Of a DNA stretch of 64,000 nucleotides, positions 29,312-55,793 are shown in pieces. Made by a program: the position numbers and the translations under genes. The DNA is taken from the NCBI GenBank assembly GCA_020881915.1, contig JAJFPB010000004.1, positions 5,456,001-5,520,000 of the forward strand, written 5' to 3'. The stretch's first letter is position 1. Each line of letters opens with the position of its first letter. The notes beneath the pieces were generated by a model, which saw only the letters and a program-made list of their open reading frames with translations, ran no database searches and was not told the origin of the DNA. The DNA comes from Paramyrothecium sp. XJ0827 (taxonomy: Eukaryota; Ascomycota; Sordariomycetes; Hypocreales; Stachybotryaceae).

Positions 29312-32300
29312 CTAAACGTCAGTAACTGACCAAGAACTTTCATCACCATTCTCATCCATATCTATATCCACTGCCCAGTCATCTGGGGCTGACCACATGT
29401 CGAAAACATTCTCATCAAACTCAAATTCGGTCAAATTCTTCCACATCTCCAAGTTGAGCAGATCATCATAGTCATGATCGGCGTTAGACTCTTGCATCAT
29501 CAGCTTCACCTTAGCCATGATGTCCTCCAAACAGTCCATATTTTGCTCCAAGTGCCAGGAGTGGTCACTGTCGAGGCGTAGCCAAATCGGAGAGATTTGA
29601 GCTGCTCAATGTAGAAGCCGATACTGTCGGTCCGCTTCTCCAAGGAACCGTTGCCATATCCATCGTCTTCGTGGTACCATAGGGCGCCACGAAGAAGATT
29701 TACTCTAATGTCGATGGCTGACTTGCGGTGACCCATCTTCTCGTGCATCGAAGCAAGCAGTCGCTGGCTCTCGAGTGACATGGGATGGCTTACGCCGTAC
29801 ACGTCCTTGAGGTTATACGTGATATCCTCGAGCAGCGCAAAGGCTGTTTCATGTTCGCCACAGGCAAAGTGCACCTCGGCCAGCCGTTTACCAATGGACA
29901 CGGTGGTGGCCGGGGTAAGATGGAACTCATGACTGTTGCGAGATGTCCAAAGGAGCTCGTAGATTTTCTGCGACCTGTTAGCGAAATGACTCGCGACCAA
30001 GGAGTCACCAGGTGGGGTACTGTACCTTCAGAGTCTGGAAGTCGTTCTGCTTGCCAGCAATCCTCATGATGAGACGCACGTAGCTAAGATTCATCAAACG
30101 GATGTCAAGGTCAGAGTTATGGCTCATGGCCAAAATGCCAATTTTTGTCGCCAAAGCCTCCAAATCTTCACCCGTTTTGCTCTTTTCATTCTCGGAGCAC
30201 GAGTAAAGCGCCGTGGAGAGCCTCAAAAAGAGCACAGAGACGCTACTATCGTCCATGTTGGCTCTTGTCTGTCCGCAGCCGTATATCCATTCAGACAGCA
30301 ACAGGCAGGATCGGTAGTTGCCCGCTTCAGTCAGGTCCTGGATAGTGGCAAGTGCAGTTTCCAGGAGGGACAGTGAAATTGCGTCTTGGCTCAGAGCTTC
30401 GAGAGTGTCCTGGAAGAAGGTGTAAGTGGAGCTGCTCTTCTTCTCACTCTGACCAAGCATCTTGCAGAACAGAGTCCATAATTTTTGCTGAATTTCCTGA
30501 GACTCCGTGACCAGCTTGCAAGATTCGAGGTGTGCAATCAGCCCACTACCCGTCGATAGCAGGTCATCCAGGCGATCACCGGTCAGACAAGCTCGGAGCC
30601 ATGCCTCGTAAAGACAGGTTTCTGCCAGGACCCGTGTCATAGCGTCGCTAAGAAGGTTGTCGCTCTTGCTCGACTGGAAGAGGGCTTCCATTGAGTAAAC
30701 CAGGACGAGACATCTGCGATCATACGGCATTACCGCGTTACCGCTCTGCTCGAGATAGGCACGCCCGCAAAGCTTCTCTTGTCTTGGCCGGAAAATCTGC
30801 ACCCGGACCGCAGTGAGAAAACTGATGTCTCCGTATCCGAATCCTGACTTGCGGTACATGTCATACAATCTCTCGGCGAGGTGGAAGAGCGTAACTGGAT
30901 CAACCTCTTTAGCAATCACTCCGAGGACAGCCTCCCTGAGTATATCCTTGGCTTTTTGCTTCGCGTCTGTTGTGGCGATCGAGATACAGAAATCAAGAAG
31001 CTTCTGCAAGCAAGAAATTGTGTGTTTGTGGGCATGGCCGTGCTTCTTAATTTCGAACTTCCACGCCTTGACCAGGATATTCTCGGCTCGTTCATGTAGG
31101 CAAGGCTTACTCGAGACCAGAATGCTCAGACGATCCTGTGACAGACGTAGAATGGCCACAAAGGCGTCGTCAACGTTCGAGAGTCCCAAGGCAATCTCGT
31201 TGACCTCATCATATATATCCACCGCCTCACGCATTGTTGTGTCGTCCAGCTCGAGAAGCTTGCTCAACTCTAAACATGCCTTAAGGTACCAAATATCTTG
31301 TTTCCCGAAATCAGACAGGAAGATCGCCCTAAGTCTGCGCGCCAGACGAACGGCAGTAGATATGCTGTTCATGGATATCAATATGTCAGAGTACCCTTGG
31401 AAGATCTCGAACCCACGAGCAGTATCCATGGCGAGGTCATGGCGAAGATCGAAATAGTACGACCATAGTCGCTCGTACCGCTTCAGAAGTTCCGTGCTGC
31501 GCTCATGTCGTCTTGATCCTCCATGGCTCTTGCAGAGTGCCAGAAGGCCTTCGATTAGCAAAGAAATTGACTCCAAATCATCCTCATCAGGCTCAACATC
31601 CAAGACTCCACAAACTTGTTCATCATCCTCTTCGATATCTAAGCCTAGCCTCAGACTCAAACGAATGATAGAGGATGCCACTTTGAGACTAAAATGGTGA
31701 GAGCTGCCCAAAGAACTTTTGCATTCTCCAAGGATTGATTTCCAGAAGTTTAGGGCCTCAAGACTCAACTCTGCTTCCTCTAGAGCATGGGAGACAATGG
31801 TTGCGATCTCTTGGCTCGAAGAACTCCATTCGAGAACATATCTCTTGCAGCTTTCCAACGTGAGCTTGAGGAAGTGATCTGCCCGTGCCGGTTCATTTGC
31901 GGCACGGCACATCTCAACCATGATGACGATCAACTGCACACACTCTCGGGCGTACTGCTTGGGAAGAGCCACGCTCTTGCCATCTCCAATGACTAGCACT
32001 TGGGGCCAAAGTACTTGAAAACTCTTTTGGCAGATGCTGATGGCAGTCTTGTGCTGTGATCTGGAGCGATGTAAGACGGCAAGGTCGCGGCACAAGAAGA
32101 CGGTGTCAGACCCAATTCTTCCACTATTTGAGGCCGTAACCAGGATACTGTCGAGAATGTTGAGCCAGAGAAAGTCCTCAATAGGGTTTTCTGCCTGCCG
32201 ATAGCATGTGATGAGTGCTGAATAGACCGCAAGCATCTCCTCGAAATGGTCATGGGAGGGTAGCTGATGGATCTCATATACGACCTGGAGAATGCTGAGC

Positions 32301-36237: not shown

Positions 36238-36966
36238 CCTGATAGACACGGGCGTAGGCCACATGTGATACCCTGTCTGACTATGCTCAGCACGGGACTT
36301 GTTTACCTGATGAGCGAAGGCTTGCCGTGTTTGCGATCATCGGCCGAGAGTCAATATTCCCAAGCAAAAGACCCGTTCTAGACTGGCAGCAATCTCCCGA
36401 AGAGCGTTCTCTTTGTCACTCGCATTCTCTTGCACATGGTCTACGGAGTACTTCTGACGGAAATGTCTACTTTCTTCCTGGGCGTGACCTGATCCGAGCT
36501 TCCTCAATAGTCTGTCGCTGCCTCAGCTGGGTTGATGCAAAGTGGCGTTGCCCCTGGCCTCTGGCCCCTGAACTCCAGGGCGCCGCCCCGATCGTGCGGG
36601 CCCACAGGTGTTTGTTTTGCACGCCTCCCCTGTTTCTGAAAAAGATATAATCCTTGTCGAGAACGTGGCCATGAGGTACTACCGGGGTGCTCTTTTTTTG
36701 TGCGCCGTACACCCAAAATTGGCAACTGCTTCGCTCGGTCGAATTCATCATTCTGTTCACGTGAGGTGTATAAGGAATTGTACTTGAACTGTGGAATCAT
36801 CTGCACGGCGTACTGTCGACCTTGTTCGCGACCTTGATCGAGCCTGGGGGAAGGCTGGTATTGCATACAGAAACAAACCTTTTGCTCTAATGCTCGAATA
36901 TCAACACGCAGAGCCAGTTTCGCAGGTTTTCTCTCAAGTTTCCAATTAATAAACTGCCAAAATATC
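35984..36966. other. intergenic region upstream of the STAND gene
   Basis: Contains the promoter of the STAND gene and a GT microsatellite. Frames at 36327-36866 overlap on both strands and have no recognisable features. An ATG at 36091 followed by a GTAAGA donor does not join in frame to the main exon, so 35983 is taken as the start. Confidence 0.5.
36204..36236. repeat. (TG)n microsatellite, about 16 copies
   Basis: An uninterrupted TG run of 33 bases in the region about 220 bp upstream of the STAND start codon. Confidence 0.95.
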
Positions 36967-37591
36967 TTAAAAGTAACCTGTTTCTATATTCATTCCTCCT
37001 TCCGCCTGATTGGTTGCCACGGTTTCTACCTCCACGTCCTCGCTCGCAACGTGGTCATCCAACATCTCGTTTTCCACCTGATCAGCAGGGTCCCCCCCAC
37101 CATCATTTGCCCCATTATATGAATAAAAGAAGTATTCGATCTCCTTGTCAAGTATAGCTTCAAACATCATGGCGCTGTCACGCCGTAGGGTAAAAAAGAA
37201 AGCTTCAAATGGGGCGTCCTTTCCCCCGCGATCAGTGCTTAGCCAGAGTGCTCGACAATTGGAACTCGTTTTCTTAACTTACATCGTCCTCAAATTGATA
37301 GAAGTATGAAAGTATAGGTGCGAGCCACGTATACCTTTTTGCACTGACCCATCCCGGTTCACCTGCATCAAGTCCTTGCTGATAACCTGCATTGGTCGTG
37401 ACCCTTGCCTCACGCTGGAAGATCTTCACGCGGCGTTTCAGAGAGCTTTCGTATCTAATCGGGATCATATAATCAGCAAGTGCATTGATCTTGAAAACCT
37501 CGATCAGAGATCACCTCATCATCACTGTATTGGTTTCTTTCGTGCCCAACACGAGATTCTCGTATGACTGTGAAGAGTCCCTGGACTGCAT
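36967..37591 (-). CDS. possible small multi-exon hypothetical gene
   Basis: A tentative model: an ATG at 37591 opens a short exon to 37515. A 61-bp intron (GTGATC...TTAG) joins in frame to 37453, which reads YESSLKRRVKIFQREARV and ends at QFEDD before a GTAAGT donor near 37283. A further frame at 36967-37170 reads EIEYFFYSYNGAND and an acidic tail (DDHVASEDVEVETVA) before its stop. The last two pieces look like one protein, but I could not find a phase-matching acceptor. It may instead be the 3' end of the gene at 38.1-39.4 kb. Family unknown. Confidence 0.35.
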
Positions 37592-38075
37592 TACTCCTAA
37601 CACTGCCAACCCACCGAATGAGTACGCCGAGCGGTGTAGCCACTAGTAAATGACGTTATTGATGTGTTTTGTTCATCTAATGAAGCACACTAACCTCGAA
37701 ACCCTTGCTGGGAGAATTGTAGAAAATCGCATTGGCGACCTAGATCGATTCATTAGTATGGAAAAGTATATTGTCACCGTCATTTGGCAAACAGGCGTGC
37801 CAAATGTCACGTTGCTTACTTTATTCGCCGATACATTGCTCATACATTTGTTCTGCGTCATGCATCTTTTCGTTTTACCCCATATAATGCTTTGGTGTCT
37901 CACACGAGTGTATGTTTCTCTGAATTTCGCGGTCGAAGCGTCACCAAGCCGTCCATTTCTTTCTTCTGCTTCACCACCTCCGGGAAGGAGCACGTGAGGA
38001 TCCCTGCACAAGGGTAGCATTACATTCGTGCATAATTCTCCCATGGCTGCGGCTGTGAGAACGATCCGGTACAAC

Positions 38076-39444
38076 TTAAACGGATGAGCCTTGTCTCTCA
38101 TATCTGTAGCCATACTCGTCACCCATCGCTTGCGGGAGTTCACCTTCAAATAGGATGTTGTTGAGATCAAGCGTGGGCTTGAATTGCATCCTGGTCTGGG
38201 TGATGGGCTGCACGTGATTCTCCAGGAGATACTTGCGAGCCGCGTTGAAGTTGAGATCGTCTGTTCCCGCTGCATTGGCGGCTTTGGTCCTGATAAGGTC
38301 ACTGAAGACGATGAAGAACCCCCTGCAGACTACATCGAACGCATTTGGGGGCACAGGTTGGTCCCAGTATCGTCCGTAGTGGTCTCTCACTCCGTAGGCA
38401 TTTCCCTGAGACTTGCGAAGTAAAGCTACAAACAGCTTTGTTAGTAGTAGTATCACGCAGGCTTGTCCGGATAGGAAGAAGGTCCAAGCTTACCTGCAAG
38501 CTTGCAGAAGTAATGCAGGCAAACCATTCCTTGGTCTTGGATTTGCTCTGTAGTACCACCATTAAGTTTATCAAAGAGACGGATGGAGTGCCAAGCATCA
38601 ATCTTTCCAGAAGCATTCCAAAGCTTGAAATCGAAACGGTCGGGGTGTGTTTGGTTTAGGTTGTTTAGATTCCCCAGGTACTCGATTCGTTTACCGTAAT
38701 CCCCTTTAAGCTTATCCACGTTCGATTCTGTACCCATACGAAGATAGAGGTCGACCACATGAATGAAAAAGTCGCCAGCAGGGGGCTCTCTGCTCTCCGT
38801 TTCGGCGATATATACGAATCTTTGTCTATCATCATGTAGAGGGTCTGAGTTGAGTCTGCCTTTGTAGAGGAAGATTTGGTAAGACTGAAAAGGCTCTGTG
38901 GCCTGTTCCACCCCATTTAGCCTTTGCTTACAGCGTGCTTGAGTTGGACGACTTTGAGAGAAGACGTACCAATGATTCGCTTTGCATCATAACAATGCGA
39001 GAGTTGCCATACTTGTTTTTGAAGCCTAAGCGGCCTCCATGGCCACAGATGCTTGGACTAAAGTTGACTGCTGGCGCATCTATGCGCTCAAAGCCTAACA
39101 GAAGATTCAGCAACCTCCAGCGCAAGTGTATCCAGCTCTGCGTCGAACTATGAGAAAATGATGAGAAAAACTAAGTGTTCACGTACTGTCATATTCGACA
39201 TTATAATTGCGATGAGGCCATGGTGCTTCGCCTCTAGTCATCGCCTCCAGCAAGTCATCTTTCCATGACTCTTCACTCAGAGGATGGCCTATGATCTGAT
39301 AAGTAATCGATCTATTGGGGCAGATATTCTGTCGCAATACTTACACTTCAATTCACCGAGCACTATATTGTTTCTTGTGCCTGCTACCCAGTACTCGGAA
39401 TCAAGGTTCGTTTCCAGCAGGGCCTTCAGCTCGCGCTTGCTCAT
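38076..39444 (-). CDS. orphan multi-exon protein, about 380 aa
   Basis: Five exons: 39444..39345, 39288..39183, about 39135..38970, 38902..38494 and 38425..38076. Joins 1, 3 and 4 are clean GT-AG introns with matching phase (donors GTAAGT, GTACGT, GTAAGC). The second intron is short, and its acceptor (39147 or about 39135) is uncertain. The product starts MSKRELKALLETNL and includes WRLLNLLLGFERIDAPAVNF, FVYIAETESREPPAGDFFIH, DAWHSIRLFDKL, AYGVRDHYGRYWDQPVPPN and FFIVFSDLIRT. It has no signal peptide, membrane helix or known catalytic motif. The coherent frame across five exons argues that it is real. The 3' end may extend beyond 38076. It lies between the STAND gene and the giant DUF6603-like gene, on the same strand as both. 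Confidence 0.6.
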
Positions 39445-40397
39445 ACTTGAAGAGGCTGTGGACGTCCGTCCTAGGTGAGTTTGACTTGCGAATTGGGACG
39501 GAAAGACTCCAGTGCAACCTTCAAAGAATGGGAGAAGAGTGAACGAGTCTGGTTTGGAATGAAGGTAGACGGCATCAAGCTCGACGGACTTCTAACTTTG
39601 TCAGAACCAGCGTCGGTTGGAGGAACAAAGGTATGCTGATGTAAGTATGTGGAGCAGACACCTCAATACTGGTTCGGGTGGCGATGGGTCAGGGGGATAC
39701 GCAAAATTAAACAATATTCCTGCGAACCCCATTTTCGGCTGAAAGTGTGGATGTGCCATGAGAGACTATTGAAGACCTATATGCAGGTACGAACGTGGGG
39801 ACCTTGGGGTTACGGCCTAGAATGCGGACAATCCGATGTGCATCGCCTATATCCACTCCCACCCCCCTCCCCAATTGCACGCCCTCGCCAGGGCGACTAC
39901 AGCAGGAACCGCGAGCATGGGTATCTGGACTACCGTACAGAGACAATACTGACCCTTTCGGAATCACTAGTAGGGACGCCTGGCCCGCTCACGGACTCTT
40001 TGTTCCCGGCTAGGGAAGAGATCTCCAACAATCCGGACAATTCTAGCAGTAGCGGATGTGATATTGATCAGCCACTCAGCCAGCCCCTTTTTCGCGGATG
40101 TCTGGGTTCCGGTTGTTGGCCAGGTAGGAACGTATTCGTAGTCGGATTTGAAAGGTGAAATTAGCTATTGGAATCCATCATTTGAAATTATGCATGATTA
40201 TTTTTATCAAGGCGTCTCTGAATCAGATCTTATGCAATACCCGGGAATGGCCTTCCTCACGATTATAGTATTTGCGTGTGAAGCGCAGATTAACATAATA
40301 GTGAACATAGGTTATGCTTAAAACTGGCTAATTTGAATACAGAGAGCACCAGGCGTAGATAAGAACTAGATGAAAACACAAAGATAACATCAAGACA
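39445..40397. other. intergenic region, no supported gene
   Basis: A plus-strand frame at 39649-40158 (169 codons) overlaps minus-strand frames, has no recognisable features and biased composition, and is not accepted. The last 250 bp are AT-rich and hold the 3' flank of the giant gene. Confidence 0.45.
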
Positions 40398-43300
40398 TTA
40401 ATTACAGAAAATTGTTGGAGGGCTCGTGTAGAAACGCTCTGGCTCCGATAGCACAACCCGAGGCACCTCTGCTCCAATCCTACGGTATGCCTCCATGACT
40501 TGTCGGCTCAGGGTGTCCTTACCAGAGCGCGTGGAACTTATGAATGCATCAAGAATTGCCTCGCGTTTTGGCTTGGGACGACCCTGCTTTGTGTCCGCGG
40601 ATGCCTCCGCTGGAGCAACGTTAGTCATTGCTCCTCGGATGCGGCTCCACTTGACGCTGTCTCTAGCATCCCGGCCATCAACAAAACGGACCGATTTTGC
40701 TGTCAACCCATCCGGTCTCCATGATTGAGTCGGGTAGTTTTCTTCGACAGACTTGAACACCGGCATGGACTGCGTGGGACGAACGGCTGGTGGGGGGAGC
40801 AGTGTCATGCCGACGAGATGAGTCTCCGTCGCCTGTAAATTGCCACGAACGTAGTCGGCTGGGTTGTCCTTGTATTCTCCCCAATAGTTGGCCGGGAGTT
40901 GATCGAGAATTTTGGCGACCTTTTGAAAAGGCAAAGCGTCCACCTTGCCCTTGGCGCAGACTTTGACGTCCATGGTTGTGGTGAATCTGTCCTTCTGGCC
41001 TCTCTTCATGTGCATTGGTCTGCTGCAAATATCTTCGCCGAAGTACTCGCCCGGCTCGCCTGTGACTTTGGCACAGGTGATTGGAATAGGGCTGCGCACT
41101 TGGAAGAGCAGGTTGTCGCTACGGACGATCCACGAATCCTTTTCACCACCAGGCTTTCTGGTGTGAGTGGCTGTCACGCTGGATTCATTCATCGTGTCGC
41201 TAACCAAGCCAGAGACTACAGTAAAAGTATGCGCATTCTGGATGACGTCCTTGTCCTTGTTTAAGGCAGCATTTTGAAGCACAAGATCCATAAGCTCGCC
41301 AAGTTTGATGGGTCTTATACTCTCTCCGCTTCCAGATCCAAAACTGACGCTGAACTTGACGACACACAAATCAAAGTATACCTTTCCACGAATGGGAGGT
41401 CCCTCGAGGCGGAGAGAAGCTCCAACATTGACGGAAATCTTCTTTCGGGCGAGCCAGACACGAATCTCGTAGTAGACGCCGGCGGAGATGGCCATTTCAG
41501 CTTGATAGTACAAAGGCTTCAGGTTGACCAGGAAGTCAGCGTGCGCGTCAAAGTGCGCCCCGAGAGACCCAGCGGAGAATACGGCTTGCAGCAATCCTCC
41601 AGCCATGATGGCGCCAGGTGTGATGGCAGCATAGGCATTACCAGTGACTCTCAAGTTGGAGCTGAGGGTCCATGAGATACCAAGACGCTTGGGGACAGGG
41701 TAATGGGCTGGCACCTTAAACATGGGATGGTAGCCCCCAAAGCTGACCACCCAGTCGCCTGAGTGCGGGTTATTCTTTCCAAACCAACTCCGAATTGCGA
41801 AGCCTCCCGATGGACGACAATCCTTGTTGAGGATAAATGATGTCGGATTGATTTGACCATCCACCGACAGCTCTCCGTGGAGGAGGTCGAGCTTGCCAAT
41901 GACAGAGAGATCAATAAGGATGAGAGCCTTGTCCGGGGTGCTGCCTCTTGGGAGAGAGGCCGTAGCTCGCGCAATAAGTCCAACTTCGGTCTGGTTCGGC
42001 CCCAGGGCGACAGTTGCGACAGCTCGCATGTCAATAGTCTCACAGGCACGAATTACTAGTCCCAGTGCTAACCAGAGGGACCCCATACTGGGCACGACAA
42101 AGGCGTCGTCTCCGGTAAGAGCTTTAACTGCCTTCTCCATGCTGAAGCCACCAGGGGTTTTGAATCCTTGAATGAGCGGGAATTCATTGAGCTGGTCGAC
42201 AGTGGGTAGTCGCAAACGCGAGTTGTATCCAAAGCCAGCAATAATACCCCTGACCTCGGCCCATCCCACGGTGAAGAGAAGGCCCTCCGCCATGGCATAC
42301 ACGAAGAATGAGTCATATGCCGGTACATTGTTCTTCGCAGGAACCTGCTCATACGCGCCCAGGGCGGCTATTGAGAAGTTGCTGAGAGAGATGGCAACAC
42401 CACCGAAGTAGGACTTTGTACCAGGTCTGCAATGCAAGGCGCCCGCGAGCATGACAGGGCTGCGGTCAAACGACATGTTGAAGCCCTCTATGCTGACATT
42501 GATCGGCACCTGTAGCAGATCATGCAGACCCTTGACGGACTTGAGATCCAGTACAAGATTCAGGCCTTGAACACCGGCTCCAATAGGGCCGATCAAGACG
42601 GAAGCGTCAAGAGAAATGCAAAGAGTTCCACCCTCGTAAGACAAAGCGATGCCCGAAAGCTTGACGGGCCCTTTTTTCTTGTCGAGTGGCGCCGTCGTCG
42701 CTCCGGCGTTGCCGCCCGCAGGAGGCTTAGCGACGGCATTTTCCTTCTTCTCGATCTGTTTTTGAATCTGAGGAGTCGAAGACCCTTTCTTGGCTGGATC
42801 GGTAGATTTCTCGTCTTGCTTGTGGTCAAAACAATGATCCAGCATGACACCATTGCGGCCGACAAGACGGAAATGGAAGCCTTCGGTAATCTCCTTGGCG
42901 TCCTGGCTCAGAGCAATTGAGTGACCCTGGAATATCTCGAGATTTTTATTCAATGCTTCAATTTCTGCCTTGGTAATTGCCATATTTAGCCACAGAAATT
43001 CCAGTGAGTCGAATGGGACGTCCAGATTCCCAACAAGCGGTATCTTTGGGAGGGAGGGCAGTGGACCGAGAGAAACACGGATCAGCCTCTTAGCTTTGAG
43101 ATCCTGCTTGGATTTGTCCTCCTTGGCGATGGGGTCCTGCTTCCCTTTTAGGGGAGCGTACTGGGCGAACTGCACATGGATCATTCCAAAAACAAGCTCA
43201 GCGCCAAAGACGATGCACTTGGGCTCCTGTACCCGCTTGCACCGGACGGAAAACTTGTCTTTGATGCTGTTTGAGGTCTTCATCTGCGTCTTCTTGACAA

Positions 43301-46300
43301 AATCGGGCAGTATGTCTGCGACCTCGGATCCTAGGAACTTCCGGATAGGGTCCTCAAGAGAAAATTCTTGGGAGGCCTTGCCAGTGTAGAGCTCCGGTTG
43401 TAGATCAGCGGTGAAGGTCCAGTCGTCCGCGTTCAGCCGTGTGAAAGTGGTTTTCAGTGCCAGAGGTGAGATTTTGAGAGTAGCGGCCAGCTCAATCTTT
43501 GGGTTTGTTTTCGTGGACGACTGGTACGTGAGGGAAGCCTCTTGGAGCATAATGTGCTCCAGGATCGACATAGCCTGTGTCTTCTCCTCACCCGCCCAGA
43601 AGAGAGAATGGAGGAGAGTCATTGGTATGTTGGCAGCCCTAATGCTGACGAAGACTTGGCTGTTGATCGACCCGTATTTCACCATCGCTTCGAACATGGG
43701 CGGTACGCTTTCAGGCTTCAAAGGCACAAGACTGAGGGATCCGGACAGTGCAACAACGAAGTTCTTTGGCCCCCCACCATACTTGAAGTTGGCCGTGAGA
43801 TGCAGCATAGTATGCAAGACTTGTAGTGGCGGAATGCTGGAGCTGGAAACGGCAGTGTTGGAAATTGAGGGTGCGCCTACGATGGCTTGCAGCTCAGCCT
43901 CGACTCTCAGGGCCTCATTTGATACGAATAGACTGGCCAGTGAGATTTCCGTAGGCACACCAAATGGCAAATGCTGCATGAGATCGTTATTGATGTAGCG
44001 CAGAGACATGTAGCTCTCAGACGGAGTGAGGTAGGTCATATGAGACCATTTCTCGTAATTGTTTGAATATCGCAGAGGAAGGGACTCTGACTCGAGCAGG
44101 GCAGCATTGCCTGCACCTTGGAAAGAAATTCCGCCCGAGAACGTGCCTCCGGCCTTGTCCCAGTCAAATGTCATGGTGAAGACGGCATTCTTGCCCTGAG
44201 GAACTAGGAGTTCTATGTTTGCCTCAAGGTCGAGCGTCAGGCCAACCAATGTCGCTTTTCCATTTGCATCTGACCCGAGAGTCACAGTTACTCGCCTCCA
44301 CTTAATATGATCCAGGGCGCTGGAGGATTTGGGGGAATCCGGTGTGACTGTTTTCCCTGCGCCGTGGCCAACCCGTCCGAGGGTTTCTTCAAGTTTCCCG
44401 ATGGCACCCTGAACTTCTGAGCAGCTTTTCAATATCCAGTCTTTCAGCGCCGACCACTGAAGCTCTTTTGAGTAACACACGAGCATGAGGCAAATCTCGT
44501 CATCGGAAAACTCAACGTAGGCCCCCAGAGCGCGCTCGATTTCCATTATCTTCAGCTCGGCCGCCAAGACCAGACTCCCCTGTGTATCTGCAACTCCCCA
44601 GGGGCCCGACAAAGGACGCACTGAGCGTTTGGCAATGGCCGAAAAAGGTGGCATATCCTTGCTCCATCCGGAGATATACTTGTTGAGCTGCTTGATGATG
44701 GCGCCATGCAAGCTCACCGAGGCTTCCAGACGCACTGAGCAGCGAGACCCTAAACCAGCCTGGTACCAAATTGCGTTGCGTGCAGGAAGGCCCTCTGATG
44801 AGCCTAGGGTGATGTCAGTACCGAGCAAAATCGTTTTGAGCCAGGGCTTGGGAGCGAGATCTGCTAGCACGACAAGGTCACCTAGGGTCTTGAAACCGCC
44901 GTTCGCAGGATTAACAGCGTCGATGGCGTTTTGCTCGAGACCGAGGAGCACACAGCCAGGGTATCTTTCGATACCCGAGCTGCTCACCCGGGCAGCTCTG
45001 TTTGCAGATTGTGGTGCAGATGTGGTTGTGACGGCATCCGTTGTGGACGGAGAGCCCTCGAACTGGTGGTTCAACACATCAGCCGACGCGGAGAAGACCA
45101 GAGGAGGGGTAGCGTCATCTTTCGAGACCCGAACTCTGAGGTTGACTATTTCGAAACCTTGATCCGGAGATGTTCTGAGGTCGACACTGATACTCTGAAG
45201 ATAAGGCGTAATGTTTGTAGTTTTTGGATCACCAGTTCTCTTTCCCAGCTTCCACAAAGCATCGATATCATTTCTCATGACATCATCCATATAGAGCTCA
45301 TATGATGATGCTACCTGACCAGTCTCCCCAATCGCGGTGTCAAAAAGTAGTGAGCCCGCTTTGAGCATAAGCTGCTGAGTCGTACTGCCGACCTTTGCGT
45401 AGGCCACATGATCCATGGGCACTTTGCCAATGCCGAGTGCCATACCGGGACCTTTTACACTATTATCATGGCCGTCGGCCGTGAGCATGTAAAGTTCTTT
45501 CAATGGCAAGCGGCCTTTTGAGGGTGGAGCCTGAGAGACCAACGGCTTCGTCAAAGGGGCAGCTCCTGTAGATGATGGAACAGTGCCAGGTGCTGCTGGA
45601 CTAGCACCCCCTAGAAGAGACTTCTCTTGAGGTAATGGCGGGACATCATTCCCAGTCGTCACAGATGTGTTGGGAGAAACTGACACAGGAACCCCTGCGC
45701 TTGTGATCAATGGTGTTTCGGGAGGAACAGTAGGAGCATGGAGGCCAGTGGCTATAGAAGGGGTTGTCTCTGGGCCTGTTGTCCCCGAGGTCAGTGTCCT
45801 GGGAGGGTTTCCCGCGAGGGGCCCGGTGACGGGATCAATTGACACTGGGGCTGGAACGCTCGGATCTGCAGGAATAGCAGGTGTAATCTGTGGTGTCTGT
45901 ATGATCGGGCGCGGTACAACTCCTGGTAGCACGCTTGGAGAAGATGGCACAGGGAAAGCCAGCGGTGGCACCGATGGAACCACACCAGAGTCTACTGGAT
46001 CTCGCCGTGGTTGAGGCTGAGGTTGACCGTCATCTCCAATTGTTCCGACAGCGGGTGGCATCTGCGTCTGGCCGGGTTCATGGAGTGTCTGGGTGCCTGA
46101 TGATGCATACCGAGAGCCCAGAGTCGTCCCGGGTACTGGAAGTGTCGGTTGAAAGGCCTCGTGTCTTTGATGCCGCTCGCGGTGATCATGTGCTCCCAGG
46201 CCTGGTCGTTCCTGGCCCACTGATCTACGGCGCGTCTTGCGCCTTGTACGGGGGAGAACAGATTGTTCCCCGTCGTCTCTCCAGTGATCAGGCAATTTGC

Positions 46301-46718
46301 TTCGACCAAAGCTCGAGCTGGGAGGTGGCAGGCTGTGCTGGTATTGGTATCTGCTCCCCGCGCGTGTCCAGTCTCTCTCCCCGAGCAACAGTGGGGAGCT
46401 CGCGTGCCTCGCCCCATCTTCGTCTCCGTTGGAAGTCGAATGTGAAGGCCCCGAATGTGCAGTCTGTGAAGTTCCATGTCAGATGCGTCGTCGCAGAGGA
46501 GGAGGACGTCGAGGCGAGTTACTCACAGCACCACCAGGCTTGAAGATGACCAATCTGCCGGATCGATCAATGAAGCCAGTACGATTGGCCAGAGTGTGCC
46601 GCAGAAGTTCCTCGGCCTCACTCTCTAGGCTTCTGTCCAATTCATCGAATGTTTCTTCTGGGTGTGGCAACGAGGCCCACCTTGCACTCGCTGCCCTCCG
46701 CTGATCGCGGCCCGCCAT
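40398..46718 (-). CDS. giant DUF6603-like protein, about 2,085 aa
   Basis: Two exons: 46718..46527 and 46463..40398. The 63-bp intron (GTGAGT...ACAG) is phase 0, and the second exon is an unbroken 6.07-kb frame. Residues 1-64 are helical and charged. Residues 65-350 are Pro/Ser/Thr/Gly-rich and probably a disordered linker. The rest is rich in beta strands with repeated amphipathic patterns. From about residue 1334 (GIALSYEGGTLCISLDASVL) to about 1776 the pattern fits DUF6603 as I know it: GGVAISLSNFSIAALGAYEQ, SFFVYAMAEGLLFTVGWAEV, RGIIAGFGYNSRLRLP and WLALGLVIRACETIDMRAVA. No signal peptide or clear membrane helix. The biochemical role of DUF6603 is not known to me. Near-lack of introns is odd for a 6-kb fungal gene and would fit transfer from bacteria. 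It is on the same strand as the 1,056-aa gene upstream, 815 bp away. Confidence 0.82.
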
Positions 46719-47532
46719 GCTCAATTGTAACCTTCCTTTAGTCTTCTTCTTCTAATCGATGAAGAAAGCGTGAGTCTCGTAGAAGCTGGAGGAGAAAGCG
46801 GCAAGCAAGTTCGGCGGAGAGAACGACCTCTACGTGCCAGAACACAGGCTTGCGACTGCGTATAGGTGTCTGCGAGCAGCCTGGGCGTAGCGATTACTCC
46901 AGTCATAGGGACACACCAGGCGGGTAGCAAACCCGGTAGGAAGCGACGCTTCTGTATCCGTAGCCCGGATCCCTGCATCGCAATTATCACACTGCCCCTG
47001 TCATGCATGCCCGCGAGCTAATGCGGCGTTATTGGCTCCATCCATCAGCCAGCCATTCCCGAGCTATCGATCAGGCGAAGGCTGAGAGCCTGGAACCGAG
47101 GACCCCTGGACTCAGCCCTGCAATGACACCTGGGGTGTGTATTGGCACGGATGCGTTAGTCGATGGCGAGCAGGATACGCAGTTCAGCATCTCTCAGATT
47201 GCACCAGCTGCGCAATCCTCATCTTGCCTGTCAGCGAGGGAACCAAGCAGATATGTGGGGCTTTGATTTGCGTGCATCTGGTGCTTTGTATGATGCCCCA
47301 TCCAGCGTAGCCGTGAACCCTTGTCCTACCCTATAGATTCATGAAGAGATTCGACCTCGTATATTTCATATGAATCACGAGTGAATTACAATTATGATGG
47401 ACTGAAAATACAACTGGCGTACGATTTAGAAACAAATAAAAGTCTTGTTAACATATAAAATAAACACTGGAAGAGCGTGAGCAAAACTCAAACTAATCGG
47501 TCAAAATGGCTGGTCAAAAAAAATCCATTCCC
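46719..47532. other. spacer between the 1,056-aa gene and the DUF6603-like gene
   Basis: 814 bp with no supported gene. It contains the promoter of the giant gene (46720-47000) and the 3' flank of the 1,056-aa gene. Size and content argue for separate transcripts rather than an operon-like unit. Confidence 0.5.
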
Positions 47533-50500
47533 TCATTCTTTGAGAAGCGTCCAGCTGTCTTTTACTGTAAACGTCTGGTGCTCTAATTTCTCCTTCCCAT
47601 TAATCGTGTTCTTCACACGCTTCCGGTACATTTCCTTGACTCTGATCTCCACGTCTCCTCCCATGACACCATTGACCGTCGCTCGCGACAAGACAAAACT
47701 GGCGTTCAACCCGGGCACCAGTGCCGCCACTTTCCCACCCCTCGGCCTTAGGTGCACCACGAGCTCGGAATCCGCCTTCGTCTTCTTGTGCATCACGGCA
47801 GCCACCCACTTCTGTCGAGGGCTGGTGCACCTGGCTGTGGGAAGGGGCGCTAAATGGTCTAGCAGGTCTGTTGGATCCTCGCCCAACGGGATGCAGACCT
47901 CGATGGAGGCAATTTCCACGTCCGTTGGCGGGGGTCTAGCGCCGGTCATCTTGATGGAGAAGACCAAGTGTTGTGGTGTGTTCGATTGAGCCGGTATGCT
48001 TCTTCCAGGAGCGTCCTGGGAGAACGCCGTCTTGGTAAACCACGACTGGGATGCCCCATTGTTTTCTCTTCCCTTCTCCTGGGAGATGCCGCTTTGTGGA
48101 GCATGCAGAATGGCCATCTCGCGAGTATTGTCCTCTTCTGGTATGAACTTGGGGAAAAGCTCGCGTCCGGTCTTGTCGCCGGGTGTCGAGACGTTGCAAT
48201 TGAGGGTAATGCAGTGATCACGATCCACGAGCTGGGTCGCCAGATAAAGAGACTTGGAATCTGCCGCAGGCTTGTTCCACTGGCGAGTCTTATCGGCATC
48301 GATGAAATCGTCCATCATTTTCACGATGAGAAGAGGCGACAAGACGCCAGTGCTCCAGTTCCAGATAGGTGGGAAGGACGGAGGACACGACTGAATCTTG
48401 TCGCCAACAACCGTCCAGGTGACCTGCTTGTGAAAGTCGTTTTCAGATCCCCCGGCCTTGTCAGTCTTGAGAAATGGCTTCAGCTCGCACACAAACTCCA
48501 TCTTCTTCTCCTGAATGCCCGCCATGGCGAATTGCTGTTGATGAGGCGGCAGCCTGAGCTTGACAGTGTAGTCGACTATCGCTTGCTTGTCTCCTCGCGC
48601 CACCAAACAAAGGAGCATGTCGTCGTTTTTGGCCCTGTATGCGCAGGCAAGGGGTCTCGTAGGCGTTGACCCAGTCGCCTGGGTCGTGATATTCACCTCA
48701 AGATCGGGAAATGACTCGACGATGCCGCTTCGAATAATGAAGCCGGATCCACCTATCTGCGCAAGGCTGGCAGGGGCAATTTGCAAGTACATGTTGAAGG
48801 CTCTGCGAATCTCGTCTCGAACTGGGTCGTCACCGCCGCCCATGGTGTTGGCGAGGCTCATGGCGCCATCAATCATGGCGTCGATCCAGATATCGTCCAT
48901 GATGAAACAGTTGATGTGTTCCCTTACCAATGCCGAAGGATCGGGGAAGAGGTAGTTGGCCGGCACCAGCTTGAGTGACATCAGGTTGCTGACCAGCCAC
49001 TCGAAAACAAGGGCCAACTCGGGTGACTTGAATTTCGACAGATCTCCCCCGCATAGAATCTTTGTCTGTGTCTCGATCCATTCCCGCGCCGAATGTTGCA
49101 AGTTTCTTTTCATCTTGGCCTGGGTCATGACGCCGGGCGAAACTAGCATGGCACTGGAGGTATGGCTGGGCACCGTCCATCGCGCGGCCTTTTGTTGCGC
49201 CTCTCTGTTTTCGGGCAGGCCGTGGATCTTGGAGGCTAGGGAGCCGTCAAAAAGCTTGTCGAGTCTGTTAACAACGCTCTCGACCACGTCTTGCGCCTTG
49301 TGCATGGTCTGGATCCCTGACTCTTGCTTAGTGCCGCCCGCACCCGCTTGCGTCCCGGATTGCTGCTCGCCCGTTGTTGAGTTGATAACCGCCATCGTGC
49401 ATAGACGTCGTCTGAGGGTGGCAATGGAAGCGGAATACTTGGCATCACGACCTGCAAGTGATCTACCAAGTTCCCAGGCTACCGCGTACGAAATGTCGAT
49501 AATCCTGGCCTGGGAGTCGATGATTTGCAAATCCGAGCCGTGGATACTGGGCCTTAGATGAACTCGGCGCGTGGCCTTGGGAAGCAGTGGCCCTCTGTAT
49601 AGAGCCATCGCGGACTGGCCGGCGATGTCGCGGTGCCGAACAATGGTGTAGCCTTGTTCGACTCGTTCTCGCACCCAAACCATGGACGGGTCATTTCGAT
49701 CAACTTCGGGCCCGAGGGGCTGCAGGGGAACGGATAAGGGGCGGATATTTTTCGAGAGCTCTTTGAAGATCTCCTGAGACGAATCTGCGTTGTTTTCTTG
49801 CCACGTAAATGTCCACGAGAATACGGACAAGAGAGCGACAATCGTCGAATCCAGCTTCGCCCTGCCCCAGTCGATAGTCTCAGTAGCCTTTTCGAGTGAC
49901 ACAACGTGCGCATGCACCTTTTGCTTGCCATTGGTAGATGTGTATGGGCGCATGCGATGACCCAAAAGGGTACTGAATCTGGCGCTGCTGTGTCCAGTTC
50001 CGTTGTCGACACCCGCATCCGTCATGAACGCGAGGTTCTTGTAACGGTCCAAGTCAAGTCTGGTCTGCGGGACACTCTTTCCCGTGCTGTCTTGCTGCTC
50101 AAAATAAATCTTGAACGAGGCTCCCTTGAGAAAGATGAAGTCGGCTGCAGCCTCGGACCCATCTGGCTTGGCCGGGACGTCCTCCGCTGTGAGATCCGCC
50201 GTGTGGCAGTAACTGGAGCGCTTGGCGTTGAATACGCTCAAAGGCAAAGTGACTGCCTTTGTTCCAGAAGTTTTGAGGCTAGTGCTCGCAAAATCAGGGG
50301 GTGCGTACAGCTCTTCGTCAGTAAAGAGGAGAAGAGCGAGCCATGGCGTGGGTGTCGTAGGTGTCGAGTCGGAAACGCCCCTGGGAGACCTTTCCCACGG
50401 GGTCGCGCCTTTGAGGACGATGTGCGGGAGAGTCATTGCGCTCACGACGCCCATATTCGGTGGGTAAAACGAATGAACTAGATCTCGCGACAGTACGTAT

Positions 50501-50703
50501 GGCTCACATGTCCTGATCGTCATAGGCTGCGTGGATACAATATCTTGAAGCTCCCCGTTGGGAGCCTTAATGGCTTGCTTGCTGACGATGACATACTCGC
50601 CAGGTTTCAGTGGCGGCACCTCGTAGGCGTATAGTTTGCCACTCGGTTTGCCATCTTTGGTGTTGGGGATGGAGGACGTTGACGTCGCAGTGGTTGCGAC
50701 CAT
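47533..50703 (-). CDS. large uncharacterised protein, 1,056 aa, second member of the three-gene set
   Basis: A single uninterrupted exon with an ATG at 50703. No signal peptide or membrane segment. The N-terminal third is strand-rich (LKPGEYVIVSKQAIKAPNGE, TPWLALLLFTDEEL, FSTLLGHRMRP, HAHVVSLEKATETIDWG). The middle contains VEQGYTIVRHRDIAGQSAMA followed by LYRGPLLPKATRRVHLRP and IIDISYAVAWELGRSLAGRD. From memory this resembles uncharacterised bacterial proteins that have a QGY-x-pl-r-x-R-x-G-e-x-a-x-a-x-Y-R-GP-l-P block and a DiSYaaAWqLGR block, but I cannot name a family. A Gly/Gln-rich linker lies near residues 445-465, and the C-terminal 500 residues are mixed alpha/beta. It is divergent from the 1,415-aa gene across 783 bp. 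Absence of introns in 3.2 kb supports the idea of bacterial ancestry; this is inference. Confidence 0.82.
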   Translation of the reverse strand: MVATTATSTSSIPNTKDGKPSGKLYAYEVPPLKPGEYVIVSKQAIKAPNGELQDIVSTQPMTIRTCEPYVLSRDLVHSFYPPNMGVVSAMTLPHIVLKGATPWERSPRGVSDSTPTTPTPWLALLLFTDEELYAPPDFASTSLKTSGTKAVTLPLSVFNAKRSSYCHTADLTAEDVPAKPDGSEAAADFIFLKGASFKIYFEQQDSTGKSVPQTRLDLDRYKNLAFMTDAGVDNGTGHSSARFSTLLGHRMRPYTSTNGKQKVHAHVVSLEKATETIDWGRAKLDSTIVALLSVFSWTFTWQENNADSSQEIFKELSKNIRPLSVPLQPLGPEVDRNDPSMVWVRERVEQGYTIVRHRDIAGQSAMALYRGPLLPKATRRVHLRPSIHGSDLQIIDSQARIIDISYAVAWELGRSLAGRDAKYSASIATLRRRLCTMAVINSTTGEQQSGTQAGAGGTKQESGIQTMHKAQDVVESVVNRLDKLFDGSLASKIHGLPENREAQQKAARWTVPSHTSSAMLVSPGVMTQAKMKRNLQHSAREWIETQTKILCGGDLSKFKSPELALVFEWLVSNLMSLKLVPANYLFPDPSALVREHINCFIMDDIWIDAMIDGAMSLANTMGGGDDPVRDEIRRAFNMYLQIAPASLAQIGGSGFIIRSGIVESFPDLEVNITTQATGSTPTRPLACAYRAKNDDMLLCLVARGDKQAIVDYTVKLRLPPHQQQFAMAGIQEKKMEFVCELKPFLKTDKAGGSENDFHKQVTWTVVGDKIQSCPPSFPPIWNWSTGVLSPLLIVKMMDDFIDADKTRQWNKPAADSKSLYLATQLVDRDHCITLNCNVSTPGDKTGRELFPKFIPEEDNTREMAILHAPQSGISQEKGRENNGASQSWFTKTAFSQDAPGRSIPAQSNTPQHLVFSIKMTGARPPPTDVEIASIEVCIPLGEDPTDLLDHLAPLPTARCTSPRQKWVAAVMHKKTKADSELVVHLRPRGGKVAALVPGLNASFVLSRATVNGVMGGDVEIRVKEMYRKRVKNTINGKEKLEHQTFTVKDSWTLLKE

Positions 50704-51486
50704 CTTGAGACTGACTTCCGTCGAAAGGCGGTGTTAGCAAAATCCAGATTCCCGTACAATCTGCTCGTTTTCGCCTTCAAAGAGGACTACGAGACGGGAT
50801 TGGATTGCTTCTGGTTTGCGATCAGTCTGCCTATTACCGGAGTTCGCTGAACACCATGAAGAGGATGGGTGTGTGTCTATCCAGCTAGTTCCAAGGGTCC
50901 AGCAGGGGCACGTTGCTCGACCCACAACATATGAGGATCACTGTCGGCGGGATCAATAATTGCCATGTCTTTCCGATAGCTGCGTGACGAGCGACGGGGA
51001 TGCGACATCTTGATTGATCAGATTGACCATCACAGACTATCGAAAACCAAGCGCGGACAGGCCGAGTGTACTGCCATGAAGTACCGGTAGCCCCCTACCC
51101 TGCATTCAGCTGCCGTTCGTCTCGGGTGGATTATTTGGAGCATCTGTGCCTGTCCGTTCCTGCATCTAGATTCAAGCCTCAGCCCGCCACGCGCATAAAC
51201 CCCGTGCACATACCCCTGCTGTGAACAGGGTCTAACCGTTGTCTTCCGACTGAGAAGCACTGTCCACTGACGAAACACACCCCAGAACTTACACGACGGC
51301 TGATGAGAGTCTATGCCCACCCAAATGATGGAGCTGGCCTCAATACTCTTCTCGTTGTCGTACTCTGCAATGCTCTATCTGCGGCAGTCCACGTAACCTG
51401 CCAGTCCGCTCCCTCCTGTGCATAATTCTTCCTTTGCTTCAAGAGACGCTCTCAAGTCAGGTGCGTGTGTATACCATCTCTCAATC
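50704..51486. promoter_or_regulatory. bidirectional promoter region of the large-protein genes
   Basis: 783 bp lie between the start codons of the 1,056-aa and 1,415-aa genes, which point away from each other. Open frames inside overlap on both strands and are not supported. The head-to-head layout suggests joint expression of the two products. Confidence 0.55.
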
Positions 51487-54400
51487 ATGGCCACATCGAC
51501 GTCGATACCGACAGCTCCCCCAATGGGTTCTGTTGCCGAGTTTGGAGTATCAGGGATTCCCGATGATGGATGGGGCGATGACGCTGCTGCTCCAGAAGCC
51601 CCCGAACAGCCCAAAAGTACCAAGTCCAAAAAGGCCACCTCCGTGGATTGCTGGTCGATGAGCGTCGATGCCTTCGTCTTGAATACAAAGATATTCAACA
51701 ACCATCATTTCATCGCGCCTCTCAACCGCCCCGACAATGCCGCTTTTTTGCCAGGCATGTTCTCAGCACCCGATGCCATTCCTTTTGTGGATGTTGACGG
51801 AGCCCATCCGTGGTATCGGAACTCCCGTATTGCCGACATCACAAAGACTCCAGAGGAAAAGAATGGATCCAAGAGCTACGACAACATGATAAGGGAGGGG
51901 AGGCTGGGAGTCTACCTCCACTGGTGTCTCCCCCAGAAATTCCGCAGCGGGAAGGCAAAGGACACGGATGACGACGAGGCTGGCAAGATCAATGTGAGCA
52001 GAACGCCCAACACTCCAAGCTTCTGGATACGGTTTTGGCTAACTAAGTCCAGCGCTATCATATCCCTGACCGTTGGATCGTGTTTCGTTGCATCACCGAT
52101 GCAGCCGAACAGGACGCTCCGGCACTGTCAGCGTTCATCGTGGAGAGCAATCGAATCCGTCATTTCGGAGGTTCCATTGACGAAAGCTTCGACGTTGAGA
52201 TAGATACCTCTCCCTTCATTGATGTAAACGTGCCAGTGGAGAGGCAAATCGACGTATTCATGGGAATGAAACGAAACTTCGACGACGACTGGGATGACCC
52301 TGAGCCGGATGGCAAATACCACACGCCCCTGACGCTCCTGGATTCTGCCAACCCCCTTTTCGCCGACTTTCAGCACCACAACTCCAACGTCTTTTCCATA
52401 CATGATGACATGACATGGAAAGACGCTCAAGGAAACTTGATCCGGTCTCACACTGCGACAATCTCGTATGCTATATTCGGCTACCATTCGCAACACTCGG
52501 AGGCCAGAGTTGTCATCCACGGTTCTTTGTACAACATTGAATGGAAGAGGTCTGAGGCACCCAAATACTCCGAAGCTATCGACATTGCAAAGAATGTCAA
52601 CAAATACCAGCCCATTGCGCTCGGATCAGACACTCTCGAGGCCCTCCAGGCGTATATGTTCAACCTGCCCGGAAACGCAGACTGGGTGGGACTTATTGAC
52701 GAGATGAAGCTGATGATCGGCCAGTCCGGCCATGGTGGGCTCTTGGGCGCAACCATTCCGCAAAATCTTAGGGCAGGCTTCAAGCCATCCGACGGCGGCC
52801 GATGCTGGCGCTTTAACAATAATGCCGTTGGAACAGCGGACAAGCCAGATGGTCACAAATCCAAAGCCCATATACCCAGTGCTCTCGAGATGACCGCCCT
52901 GCTCAAGACGAATCGATACCAGGCATACGTTGATGCACTCGCTCGCCAGGAGCACTATCTACGCCACCGGCTCTTCTGTGAGTGGTGGCACCGACGCTCT
53001 CGCGTTTCTGGGGGTAAATGGGAGTCGCCCAAGTGTCAGCAGGAAGGAAGTGACCGAATCGCCAGGGATATTGCCTCCCTTGAGCGAGTTGTCAAGTTGC
53101 GTATCACCTATACGCAGGACTCTGTTGCGGCAGATCTTGGTAAGATGCATGCGACAGCCAGGCCCGAATTTTTCAGCCGGGCCGATCCTTCAATCATTCT
53201 CGGAGGATTAGGCATGACCTGGCCTGCTGAATTCCTGACAATGAAGAACTGGGAACCTCGTAAACTCGAGGATTTGCCATTTTCTGGGGATAAAGGTGCT
53301 GCCGTGGTTCAAAACTGGCTGAAGGAGATTAGCAGCCCTGGTAGCACCAGTGGCTCAACTTCAACAGCAGGTCAGGGGTGCATAGACCACGGTATGAAGC
53401 ACTTTTTCCAGAACCCAGATCTCGTCAAACAAATTCTCCCCCAGATCCAGAAGCAGAACAAGGCTCTCATGAAGCTTCCTGCAATCTTCAGAACACTCGA
53501 AGATATGAGTGCCCTCAATTTTACTGCGCCGGGATGGGTCCGTGTGACCATCGACGCCCTGATGCAGGAATGGGCCTACGGCATGAGCATCCAAGACCCG
53601 GCGAATCGTCTTCCCGCGCCTAAGCCTGCCTACTACACTGTTGATGACACACATTGGGGTGAAACACAACCGTGCAGAGCCCTTTTCCTTGAGTGGGAAT
53701 TGGAGTACTACCACCTGCCGAAGCGCTTCTGGCACTTGGAGAGGAACAGTGACGGAACTGCAGACTACAAGATCGTACCTGGCATCAATATCTCGTCCTT
53801 TGAACTTATGGACTCTCACAGACGCACTGTCATGGGCCGTAGCATTCTGCGGCCCAACGCAGAGTGGCCTCTTACCACTCTTTTGCAGCAGCTGCTCGAC
53901 AAACTAGATCCTGGTGACTTCTACAACAAGGCCCATCTCACGGCGGCTGGTGGCAAAGTCGGGATCCAGGAAAGCCTTGAGGGTGCTTTGAAAGCCCTCC
54001 GTCTTGTGTCCGGAAGCTTAGAAGGATTCACTGACCACCTTCTCACGTTGCATGGCGGACTGCACATCTCGCCGTACAAGTCAGAGACAAACCTCCCCAA
54101 GACCGATACAGACAAAGCCCTCCTCAAGGCTTTGATGGAGTCAGGTGATGGTTTCGACGTGACGCCGTACGGAGAAGACGCTTTCTCGATCGACAGGGCC
54201 GAGAGGGACTTTAAGCCTGTTACCCATGGTCAAGCACGGTTCACACGATTCAACATTGTTGACAAATTTGGCCAAGTAATCTCGCCAATCCACAACCCAG
54301 CCTCGAAGGAAACAAAGCCGCTTTATCCTTGCATCGGCCGTTCTATTGCTTGCCAGGTGAACCAATCAGAAGGTGGCAGATTTGCTAACAGCGTCAACCT

Positions 54401-55793
54401 GGACGAGGACAACTGTTCACAATTCTTTCAGCTGGGCCACCGCATCAATCAGGACGCCCGGCTCAACACGTACTTTGTTGTTAACTCGGCTGACTACCAG
54501 AGCCACCACGAGACCACCCAGTTCTTCAAGGGAGACAGAGCTCTGGGTAGAGGCCAAATCGAGCACTCGTGGCGTCCAACAACGGAATACGAGGACCCTG
54601 TGTGGGGTTGGTTGATGCTCGACTTCCGAAGCATGGCTATCCAGGTATACAATGCCGCAGGCGAGAGCATGGGCCAGGCAATCGTGCCCACCTCGATCCA
54701 TGGAAAAGCCTACTGGCAAGTCTACTACGCTGAGGGAGATATGGCGGAGCACGTTGACGAGAACCTGCAACTGCAGCAGTTTATGAAGCGCATGTCCAAT
54801 TCAAACTTCTTGATCGGCCTATGGACCATGCTTGCGGACGCTTGCCAGAATATCTACCACGACCCAGCCTCGGGTGACGTGCAGATGCTCAACATGGTCG
54901 GCAGACCCCTTGCTTTGGTCAATATCGGCATGAACATCGAGCTCGCCACACCACCGATGCGGACACAGAGTTATCAGGATATGCTCAAAAAAGAAGAACT
55001 TAATCTCGAGGAATACAAGTTTGAGGTTCTCCTCGGCGACAAGGCGAACCTACAAGACGGTCTGGTCGGCTACTTTTACCACACGGCCGACAACAAGCCT
55101 GCCAGCGATCCGTGCAGGCGACGGCCTTACGCGGAAACTGTATATACCGAGTTTGGCTACCCGGGGCGGACCGTCATTGATGGAGAGCACCAGAAGCCAG
55201 ACAACTTCGGCTCGCCTAGCACAGGCAAAGTCTACTTATCGCCCATGCATGTCGATCCCTCAGAGTATAACGGAGATCCAACGGCCTACCAGAATGCGGT
55301 CAACAACCATCCTTCCACTGCGATTCTCGGGGCCATTATCGATCCTTACATGCCTATAAACATTGCCACTGGCATCCTGCCTTCAAGGACGCTCACGCTT
55401 CCTCAGTGGGTCGTGGACCAGACACTGAAGAAGCTCCGCATCCTGCTGCGTGGCGGGCCCGTGCTGACCCGGGGCGACTTGCCCGGCATCGATGCCGTCA
55501 GAGACTCATGGGTCCCTCCAATGAACGAGACCAAGGCGGAGGCTTATCTCTCAGCACTGACGGATAAGGGAGAGTGGTCCTGGTTGCAGCCATCTGTGTC
55601 GGCCTATGCAGAGGAGGGAGATGATGATGAGTTCCTCCCGAGATTTGTGCCGTACAATCTGAAAGCGGCGCCTTCAGATTACCCGATGCAGATGGGGCCA
55701 CATACCGTGGTGGAGGGTTTCTACAAGTACAACCTGCTGCAGATGAATGCTAACGGTAAGCTGCTTGCCGGGAAGCCGCCTAGTGATGAGTAA
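51487..55793 (+). CDS. large uncharacterised protein, 1,415 aa, third member of the three-gene set
   Basis: Two exons: 51487..51993 and 52053..55793. The 59-bp intron (GTGAGC...CCAG) joins at phase 0. The N-terminal 60 residues are Pro/Ala/Asp-rich; then comes TSVDCWSMSVDAFVLNTKIF. Just before the splice is GRLGVYLHWCLPQKFRSG and just after it RYHIPDRWIVFRCI, with AFIVESN soon following. This LHW-x-LP ... P-x-RW-x-V-x-R ... VES order matches, from memory, a group of uncharacterised bacterial proteins of about 1,000 aa whose N-termini read GVYLHW-LPDAL...P-NRWLVVR. The rest is mixed, with many Trp/Tyr-rich segments (HLPKRFWHLERNSDGTADYK, RFNIVDKFGQVISPI, YEDPVWGWLMLDFRSMAIQV). The frame is continuous to TAA at 55791 and no membrane segment is seen. 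It is probably a large soluble structural or scaffold protein; the function is unknown. Confidence 0.83.

Follow-up and report, generated by a model that had tools for sequence, protein, structure and literature searches.

What do three adjacent giant genes, whose coding regions are almost uninterrupted and two of which match no known family above cut-off, mean in the genome of a fungus? The question is raised by a 64,000-nucleotide stretch of Paramyrothecium sp. XJ0827 (GenBank assembly GCA_020881915.1, contig JAJFPB010000004.1, positions 5,456,001 to 5,520,000 of the forward strand; hereafter the window), in which the genes that we call A, B and C lie side by side. The assembly comprises 51.8 Mb in 15 contigs, and the G+C content of the window is 51.2%. 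Our answer, in which we place about as much belief as disbelief, is that A, B and C form the core of an apparently undescribed multi-protein system, organized as an operon in bacteria and as a cassette in fungi, which would operate as an effector-carrying conflict assembly.

Three giant genes and their products

A preliminary description of the locus, made from the sequence alone, had proposed three adjacent giant genes with only two introns in 15 kb, both close to the 5' ends, and the rebuilt gene models bear this out. Positions in the window are as follows.

40398..46718, minus strand: gene A, DUF6603 giant protein, rebuilt model, 2,085 amino acids
46718-46527 and 46463-40398, minus strand: exons of gene A, separated by a 63-bp phase 0 intron (46464-46526)
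45531..46463, minus strand: Pro/Ser/Thr-rich stretch of A (residues 65-375), defined by composition
41100..42686 (C10:5497100-5498686), minus strand: DUF6603 domain of A, E 1e-139
47533..50703, minus strand: gene B, 1,056 amino acids, one exon, without a domain above the curated cut-off
49462..49599, minus strand: most conserved block of B, from YRGP to SYAVAWELGR (residues 369-414), defined by conservation
50704..51486, no strand: interval of 783 bp separating the start codons of the divergent genes B and C
51487..55793, plus strand: gene C, 1,415 amino acids, without a domain above the curated cut-off
51487-51993 and 52053-55793, plus strand: exons of gene C, separated by a 59-bp phase 0 intron (51994-52052)
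51916..52088, plus strand: C motifs LHW-x-LP and PDRW-x-V-x-R, which flank the intron

Both splice junctions are spanned by alignments with close homologues, ungapped in the case of C (P0056) and with one residue gapped in the case of A (P0176). The nearest relatives found are those of Paramyrothecium foliicola, with identities of 84% for A, 82% for B and 87% for C. Several details of the initial picture need adjustment. The head-to-head arrangement of start sites applies to B and C, but A and B both lie on the minus strand, one behind the other, with 814 bp between them. The contrast with intron-rich neighbours was overstated: it holds for a gene downstream of A (gene F, see below), but uninterrupted frames of 1,340 and 1,452 amino acids are also present in the window. 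Likewise, the low-complexity N-termini ascribed to the proteins are mainly a feature of A, whose residues 65-375 consist of 17% proline, 11% serine and 10% threonine; judged by eye, low complexity is confined in C to approximately the first 50 residues and is not evident in B.

The DUF6603-like region suspected in one of the proteins is a full DUF6603 domain (PF20248) in A, which scores 466.8 bits against a cut-off of 27 and covers positions 1-499 of the 502-position profile. By contrast, no Pfam or NCBIfam family was matched above the curated cut-off by B or C, which speaks against their assignment to unrelated known families. A comparison of the core proteins with PHROGs returned a single weak and unnamed match (B of the window, E 0.045). 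For C a confident structural model was predicted, which is without a clear match in the PDB, and we propose that A is a long antiparallel beta-meander with a variable N-terminal part. As a system the set appears to be undescribed: in Pfam and NCBIfam, against which all three proteins were scanned, and in PHROGs and the PDB, A alone has a family above cut-off. Neither "DUF6603" nor "PF20248" occurs in any paper of the literature searched, a search whose scope excluded subscription papers and preprints. The Pfam entry treats DUF6603 as a single protein whose function is unknown, whereas A belongs to a group of three or more linked proteins.

The sequence patterns noted earlier are present, LHW-x-LP (residues 144-149) and PDRW-x-V-x-R (residues 174-181) in C, and YRGP (residues 369-372) and SYAVAWELGR (residues 405-414) in B. 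Most of their positions are at least 80% conserved in mixed sets of bacterial and fungal sequences (77 for C, 113 for B). The conserved residues of B and C are mainly glycine, proline, tryptophan and hydrophobic ones. Two fungal proteins of the A type, P0176 and P0191, are labelled "transcriptional activator srcap" in public records, a label that nothing found here supports.

Cassettes in this genome and in other fungi

The whole genome was searched with DUF6603, B and C. Including the window, it contains four cassettes with A, B and C, each within approximately 20 kb. The other three, which are divergent, are located as follows.

cassette C15, ~2.311-2.328 Mb: A plus strand, B plus strand, C plus strand
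cassette C3, ~239-258 kb: B minus strand, C plus strand, A plus strand
cassette C8, ~5.724-5.741 Mb: C minus strand, B minus strand, A plus strand

Their proteins share 24-30% identity with those of the window over long stretches. Since gene order and orientation differ among the cassettes, linkage has been kept through rearrangement. B and C are single long frames in all three, and therefore the paucity of introns is a family trait of these two genes; A is spread there over several frames.

Linkage is also seen in other fungi. Consecutive locus tags specify C, B and A in Rhypophila (V8F33_006825, 006826 and 006827) and in Collariella (N0V88_007527, 007528 and 007529), and B, C and A carry tags C8A05DRAFT_18017, 18018 and 18020 in Staphylotrichum. 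Pairs of A and B or of B and C were recognized by locus tags in several Fusarium species and in Neonectria. The linkage of A, B and C is not a matter of chance: if genes were placed at random, the probability of finding even a single triple of this kind within 20 kb would be ~3e-5. Accidental neighbourhood was thus considered and rejected on the strength of the four cassettes, the other fungi and the bacterial operons described below. The same observations make it very improbable that A, B and C are ordinary fungal housekeeping or secondary-metabolism genes that became neighbours by accident. A polyketide-synthase-like frame lies ~21 kb away, as a biosynthetic locus would have it, but no biosynthetic domain was reported for B or C in the library scans.

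Isolated pieces of the set also occur in this genome. A lone B homologue (C10:5100139-5102262, minus strand; L031) is accompanied by neither A nor C in the surrounding 10 kb, and broken DUF6603 pieces, apparently decayed A genes, were found at C8:81534-82208 (L032) and C11:451583-451777; two of the three contain stop codons.

An operon in bacteria

Relatives of B were sought, with short aligned B homologues as query, in a collection in which each bacterial or archaeal species is represented by one genome. We examined 83 bacterial loci, namely the best 80 of 152 relatives plus three plasmid loci, and called A, B and C by profiles built from three protein sets. A is present in 76 of these loci and C in 69, and 64 hold all three side by side; within each locus the frames of the set always share the same strand. 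The prevailing orders are A-B1-B2-C, where B is split in two genes (25 loci), A-B-C (19) and C-A-B (18); B-C-A was found twice, and 19 loci are incomplete. Among the 48 genome loci in which B is flanked by 8.5 kb or more in each direction, 43 have the complete set. Genes are closely packed, with median gaps of 4 bp between A and B (71 pairs) and -4 bp between B and C (51 pairs), values for which each start was placed automatically at the earliest possible codon. In one protein (P0035) B and the beginning of C are joined in a single frame. Loci with B span 14 named phyla, 13 of which have complete sets. Outside the 83 loci, complete sets are carried by a Paenibacillus polymyxa plasmid (L117) and by plasmid pSCL4 of Streptomyces clavuligerus (L119). 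In the annotation of Streptomyces sp. NBC_01276 and of Paenibacillus polymyxa plasmids the set appears as a row of a DUF6603 protein and two hypothetical proteins. All six bacterial genomes tested for it have an A that matches DUF6603.

In the reverse test, DUF6603 was found in 15 of 147 genomes of the Chitinophaga filiformis family. Eleven of the 15 also contain B (8 strong and 3 weak matches), within ~2 kb of A for seven of the eight strong and within 1 kb for the weak ones; of the 132 genomes that lack DUF6603, 14 were selected for comparison, and B was found in none. DUF6603 proteins of ~1,140-1,230 amino acids whose B-like neighbour is weak or missing were observed in six members of this family (G010, G051, G061, G068, G071 and G083). 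Relatives of B were found neither in viral contigs nor in phage records. Homologues occur not scattered and unlinked but as cassettes in fungi and operons in bacteria.

Relationship between fungal and bacterial sets

Profiles built from bacterial proteins alone match A (1.9e-169), B (4.9e-72) and the second exon of C (3e-98) of the window, and they also match proteins of the other cassettes. The trees, which cover B and C, are unrooted and based on hand-chosen rows. A single branch with an SH-aLRT support of 100% parts fungal from bacterial sequences in each of them, with 21 fungal rows among 54 in the B tree, three of them classed as fungal by likeness, and 24 among 35 in the C tree. Cassettes C8 and C15 are sisters in both trees and the window is placed elsewhere, as expected if B and C had been duplicated together; the position of C3 is less firm. 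Acquisition from bacteria had been suspected, and the fungal cassette most likely goes back to a single old transfer from them. This direction is suggested because the set is spread over many bacterial phyla.

Enzymes and putative recognition proteins next to the core

A fourth family, D, is encoded in 52 of the 83 bacterial loci; where enough sequence follows C (63 loci), it occupies one of the next two gene positions in 41. The tail of D is variable: 47 members of at least 480 amino acids, from a cluster of 76, were scanned and showed kelch (13), Laminin_G_3 (9), phage tail Collar (9), peptidase S74 (5) and Gp10_C (3). In Embleya a protein with an F5/8C domain is encoded after C. In two Mucilaginibacter loci (L081 and L082) the operon is followed by runs of proteins of 179-195 amino acids, and the one scanned has a phage tail Collar domain. 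The Paenibacillus polymyxa plasmid p-YT9A (L117/L118) contains two genes for "phage baseplate assembly protein V" and a GH-E nuclease ~8-9 kb upstream of A-B-C.

None of the window copies contains a recognizable catalytic motif, in line with the preliminary description, but in some relatives an enzyme precedes A, either within the same protein or as a gene right before it. Bacterial operons often include a variable enzyme gene, mostly one for a hydrolase with the metallo-beta-lactamase (MBL) fold. The family with this fold is present in 13 of the 83 loci, in 10 of them directly before A, and an MBL frame also lies just before A on pSCL4. From their motifs, the MBL proteins in the variable slots of the bacterial loci appear to be of the ComEC-like nuclease kind. 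Other enzymes in slot genes are Exo_endo_phos (two, one of them above cut-off), calpain C2 and Lipase_3; among 20 slot genes scanned singly, seven had no Pfam match at 0.05. Component models of the defence-system collection PADLOC were matched by slot genes (n = 86), with LmuA (11), RTasMBL (8), Avs1a (8) and PDC-M48B models (up to 6) as the matches.

On the fungal side, the bacterial MBL profile was run on 167 A proteins and matches the N-terminal parts of four of them (P0210, P0212, P0215 and P0217; E 9e-18 to 1.2e-25), all fungal. A fifth match (7.1e-23) is the frame that immediately precedes A in cassette C3. HxDxDH and HHG motifs are present in all five. No MBL match was obtained in the window, and the D profile matched nothing at E <= 1 in the window and the cassette frames.

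The window may nevertheless contain an additional partner, located downstream of A.

~36965..39450 (approximate limits), minus strand: gene F, intron-rich, defined by homologue alignment

In the P. foliicola model P0176, gene F has its counterpart in the tail, joined to A, and the tail after A in the Fusarium tjaetaba model P0202 is 26% identical to gene F. It has no Pfam match at 0.05, and no second copy was found in this genome. The window copy of the system may act with an enzyme supplied in trans, with gene F, or by a changed mechanism.

Proposed mechanism and alternatives

We infer that A, B and C build one large assembly, because the genes touch in the operon, B and C are joined in one frame in one case, and linkage survives rearrangement. 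This assembly would be cytoplasmic, with B and C as putative scaffold subunits. The enzyme encoded beside A or fused to its N-terminus in relatives would mostly be an MBL-fold hydrolase, probably a nuclease, with an endo/exonuclease-phosphatase, a calpain protease or a lipase as possible alternatives. In bacteria, D might supply recognition via its interchangeable lectin, kelch or tail-fibre domains. With less certainty, and by analogy with immune or toxin systems, the enzyme may be carried at A and aimed by D. The resulting effector-carrying machine would act on rival cells or invading DNA. The copy in the window would have lost the enzyme or never had it, the core having been kept in four cassettes of this fungus. 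A wider version, in which the A-B-C chassis with interchangeable enzymes and recognition proteins was transferred as a unit from bacteria into fungi, and the several divergent copies of a fungal genome serve self/non-self discrimination or immunity, is rather doubtful in our view.

Several MBL-containing defence systems offer a comparison. In PMC12799240, MBL nucleases are described as modules that unrelated bacterial defence systems have recruited repeatedly, with effector roles in Avs, Lamassu, Hachiman and DRT; they are likened there to DNA-uptake nucleases and sit directly upstream of the partner gene. The likeness to Avs1, Lamassu, Hachiman and DRT lies in an MBL hydrolase whose gene immediately precedes that of a large partner protein or is joined to it, and the difference is that the fusion to A is seen in fungi.

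Two forms of conflict function can be envisaged. In the first, the system provides intracellular immunity: D would sense parts of a phage, or in fungi non-self would be sensed, and the enzyme attached to A would be freed or activated and kill the infected or fused cell. We hold this possible, though with more doubt than belief. It is favoured because of the enzymes and because signal-like N-termini, according to a crude test, are rare in A (4/70), B (2/81) and D (1/52) as compared with other genes (59/280), but not in C (11/49). Matches of slot genes to component models of Lamassu, Avs1 and DRT, the recurrent use of MBL nucleases as immune modules (PMC12799240), the patchy distribution (15 of 147 genomes) and the carriage on plasmids agree with it. 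So does a gene with a HET (heterokaryon incompatibility) domain ~3 kb from B of cassette C3 (C3:234136-235689, minus strand; L025:2136-3689), but this single gene may be there by chance. Moreover, no sensor ATPase is found among the 25 of 57 Pfam families listed for slot genes, and the lectin, tail-collar and S74 domains of D are of kinds usual in extracellular fibres.

It is precisely because of these tail-fibre and lectin domains of D that a second form is favoured, an extracellular particle for toxin delivery that is released by lysis and resembles Tc toxins or contractile injection systems. D would bind the target, the enzyme would be the payload, and A would be the translocation or membrane part. 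Contractile injection systems and tailocins are similar in that one operon has in its vicinity diverse enzymes and diverse proteins carrying Collar, S74 and Gp10_C domains. No sheath or tube family is present among the neighbour Pfam matches listed (for slot genes, 25 of 57 families), but the baseplate-V genes of the p-YT9A plasmid lie only ~9 kb from the set. Tc toxins are comparable by analogy, with giant proteins, receptor binding and an enzymatic payload, but Pfam reports no Tc-type family for A, B and C. Structural comparison yielded a root-mean-square deviation of ~10-15 Å and no superposable barrel, the model of C resembles no viral model at E 0.001, and the lack of relatives of B in viral contigs or phage records and of D in fungal loci counts against a particle of this type. 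We consider it hardly less probable than the first form.

A function outside conflict would be that of a lipid-handling or storage assembly, with A as an ApoB-like amphipathic beta-belt that holds lipids and B and C as a coat. Such an assembly is improbable: alternation reaches p < 0.05 in just six of the 24 core strands, most of the recognized slot enzymes are not lipases, and the recognition domains of D would be left unexplained.

Certain observations weigh against the effector-carrying conflict assembly that we prefer. In many bacterial loci the enzyme and recognition genes are missing, and neither kind was detected in the window. The PADLOC matches are those of slot genes in bacterial loci only, made at the level of profiles and without the matching members being named. 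Pfam reports no MBL in the C3 frame (at 0.05) or in P0212, so that the fungal MBL assignment rests on the bacterial profile and the motifs, and the presence of an MBL domain by itself means little because the superfamily is large. The core is not invariably complete, since five of the 48 well-flanked loci are without C (L067, L083 and L106) or A (L087 and L103); of the remaining incomplete loci, 13 end short and the plasmid locus L115 shows no A. In the C. filiformis family, four of the 15 DUF6603 genomes have no recognizable B, and one strong B lies ~11 kb from A. The share of signal-like N-termini in C (11/49 by the crude test) is a further point against it, and sporadic occurrence would also fit a metabolic or surface role.

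Other features of the window

Three further features lie outside the A-B-C cassette.

15444-19466, minus strand: uninterrupted frame of 1,340 amino acids that represents part of a polyketide synthase (acyltransferase, dehydratase, ACP and thioesterase domains)
30005-34363, minus strand: uninterrupted frame of 1,452 amino acids with TPR matches below cut-off
28001-29000, no strand: segment in which G+C falls sharply to 25.7%, possibly repeat-mutated or transposon-derived

Significance

A set that is complete in 13 named bacterial phyla and linked in fungi, and two of whose three proteins have no family above cut-off in the libraries scanned, represents a large blank in current annotation. The system is open to direct test in cultured bacteria such as Chitinophaga filiformis. 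Should its role in conflict be confirmed, one more chassis would join those known from defence and toxin systems, and there would be an example of an entire multi-gene machine of bacteria at work in eukaryotes.

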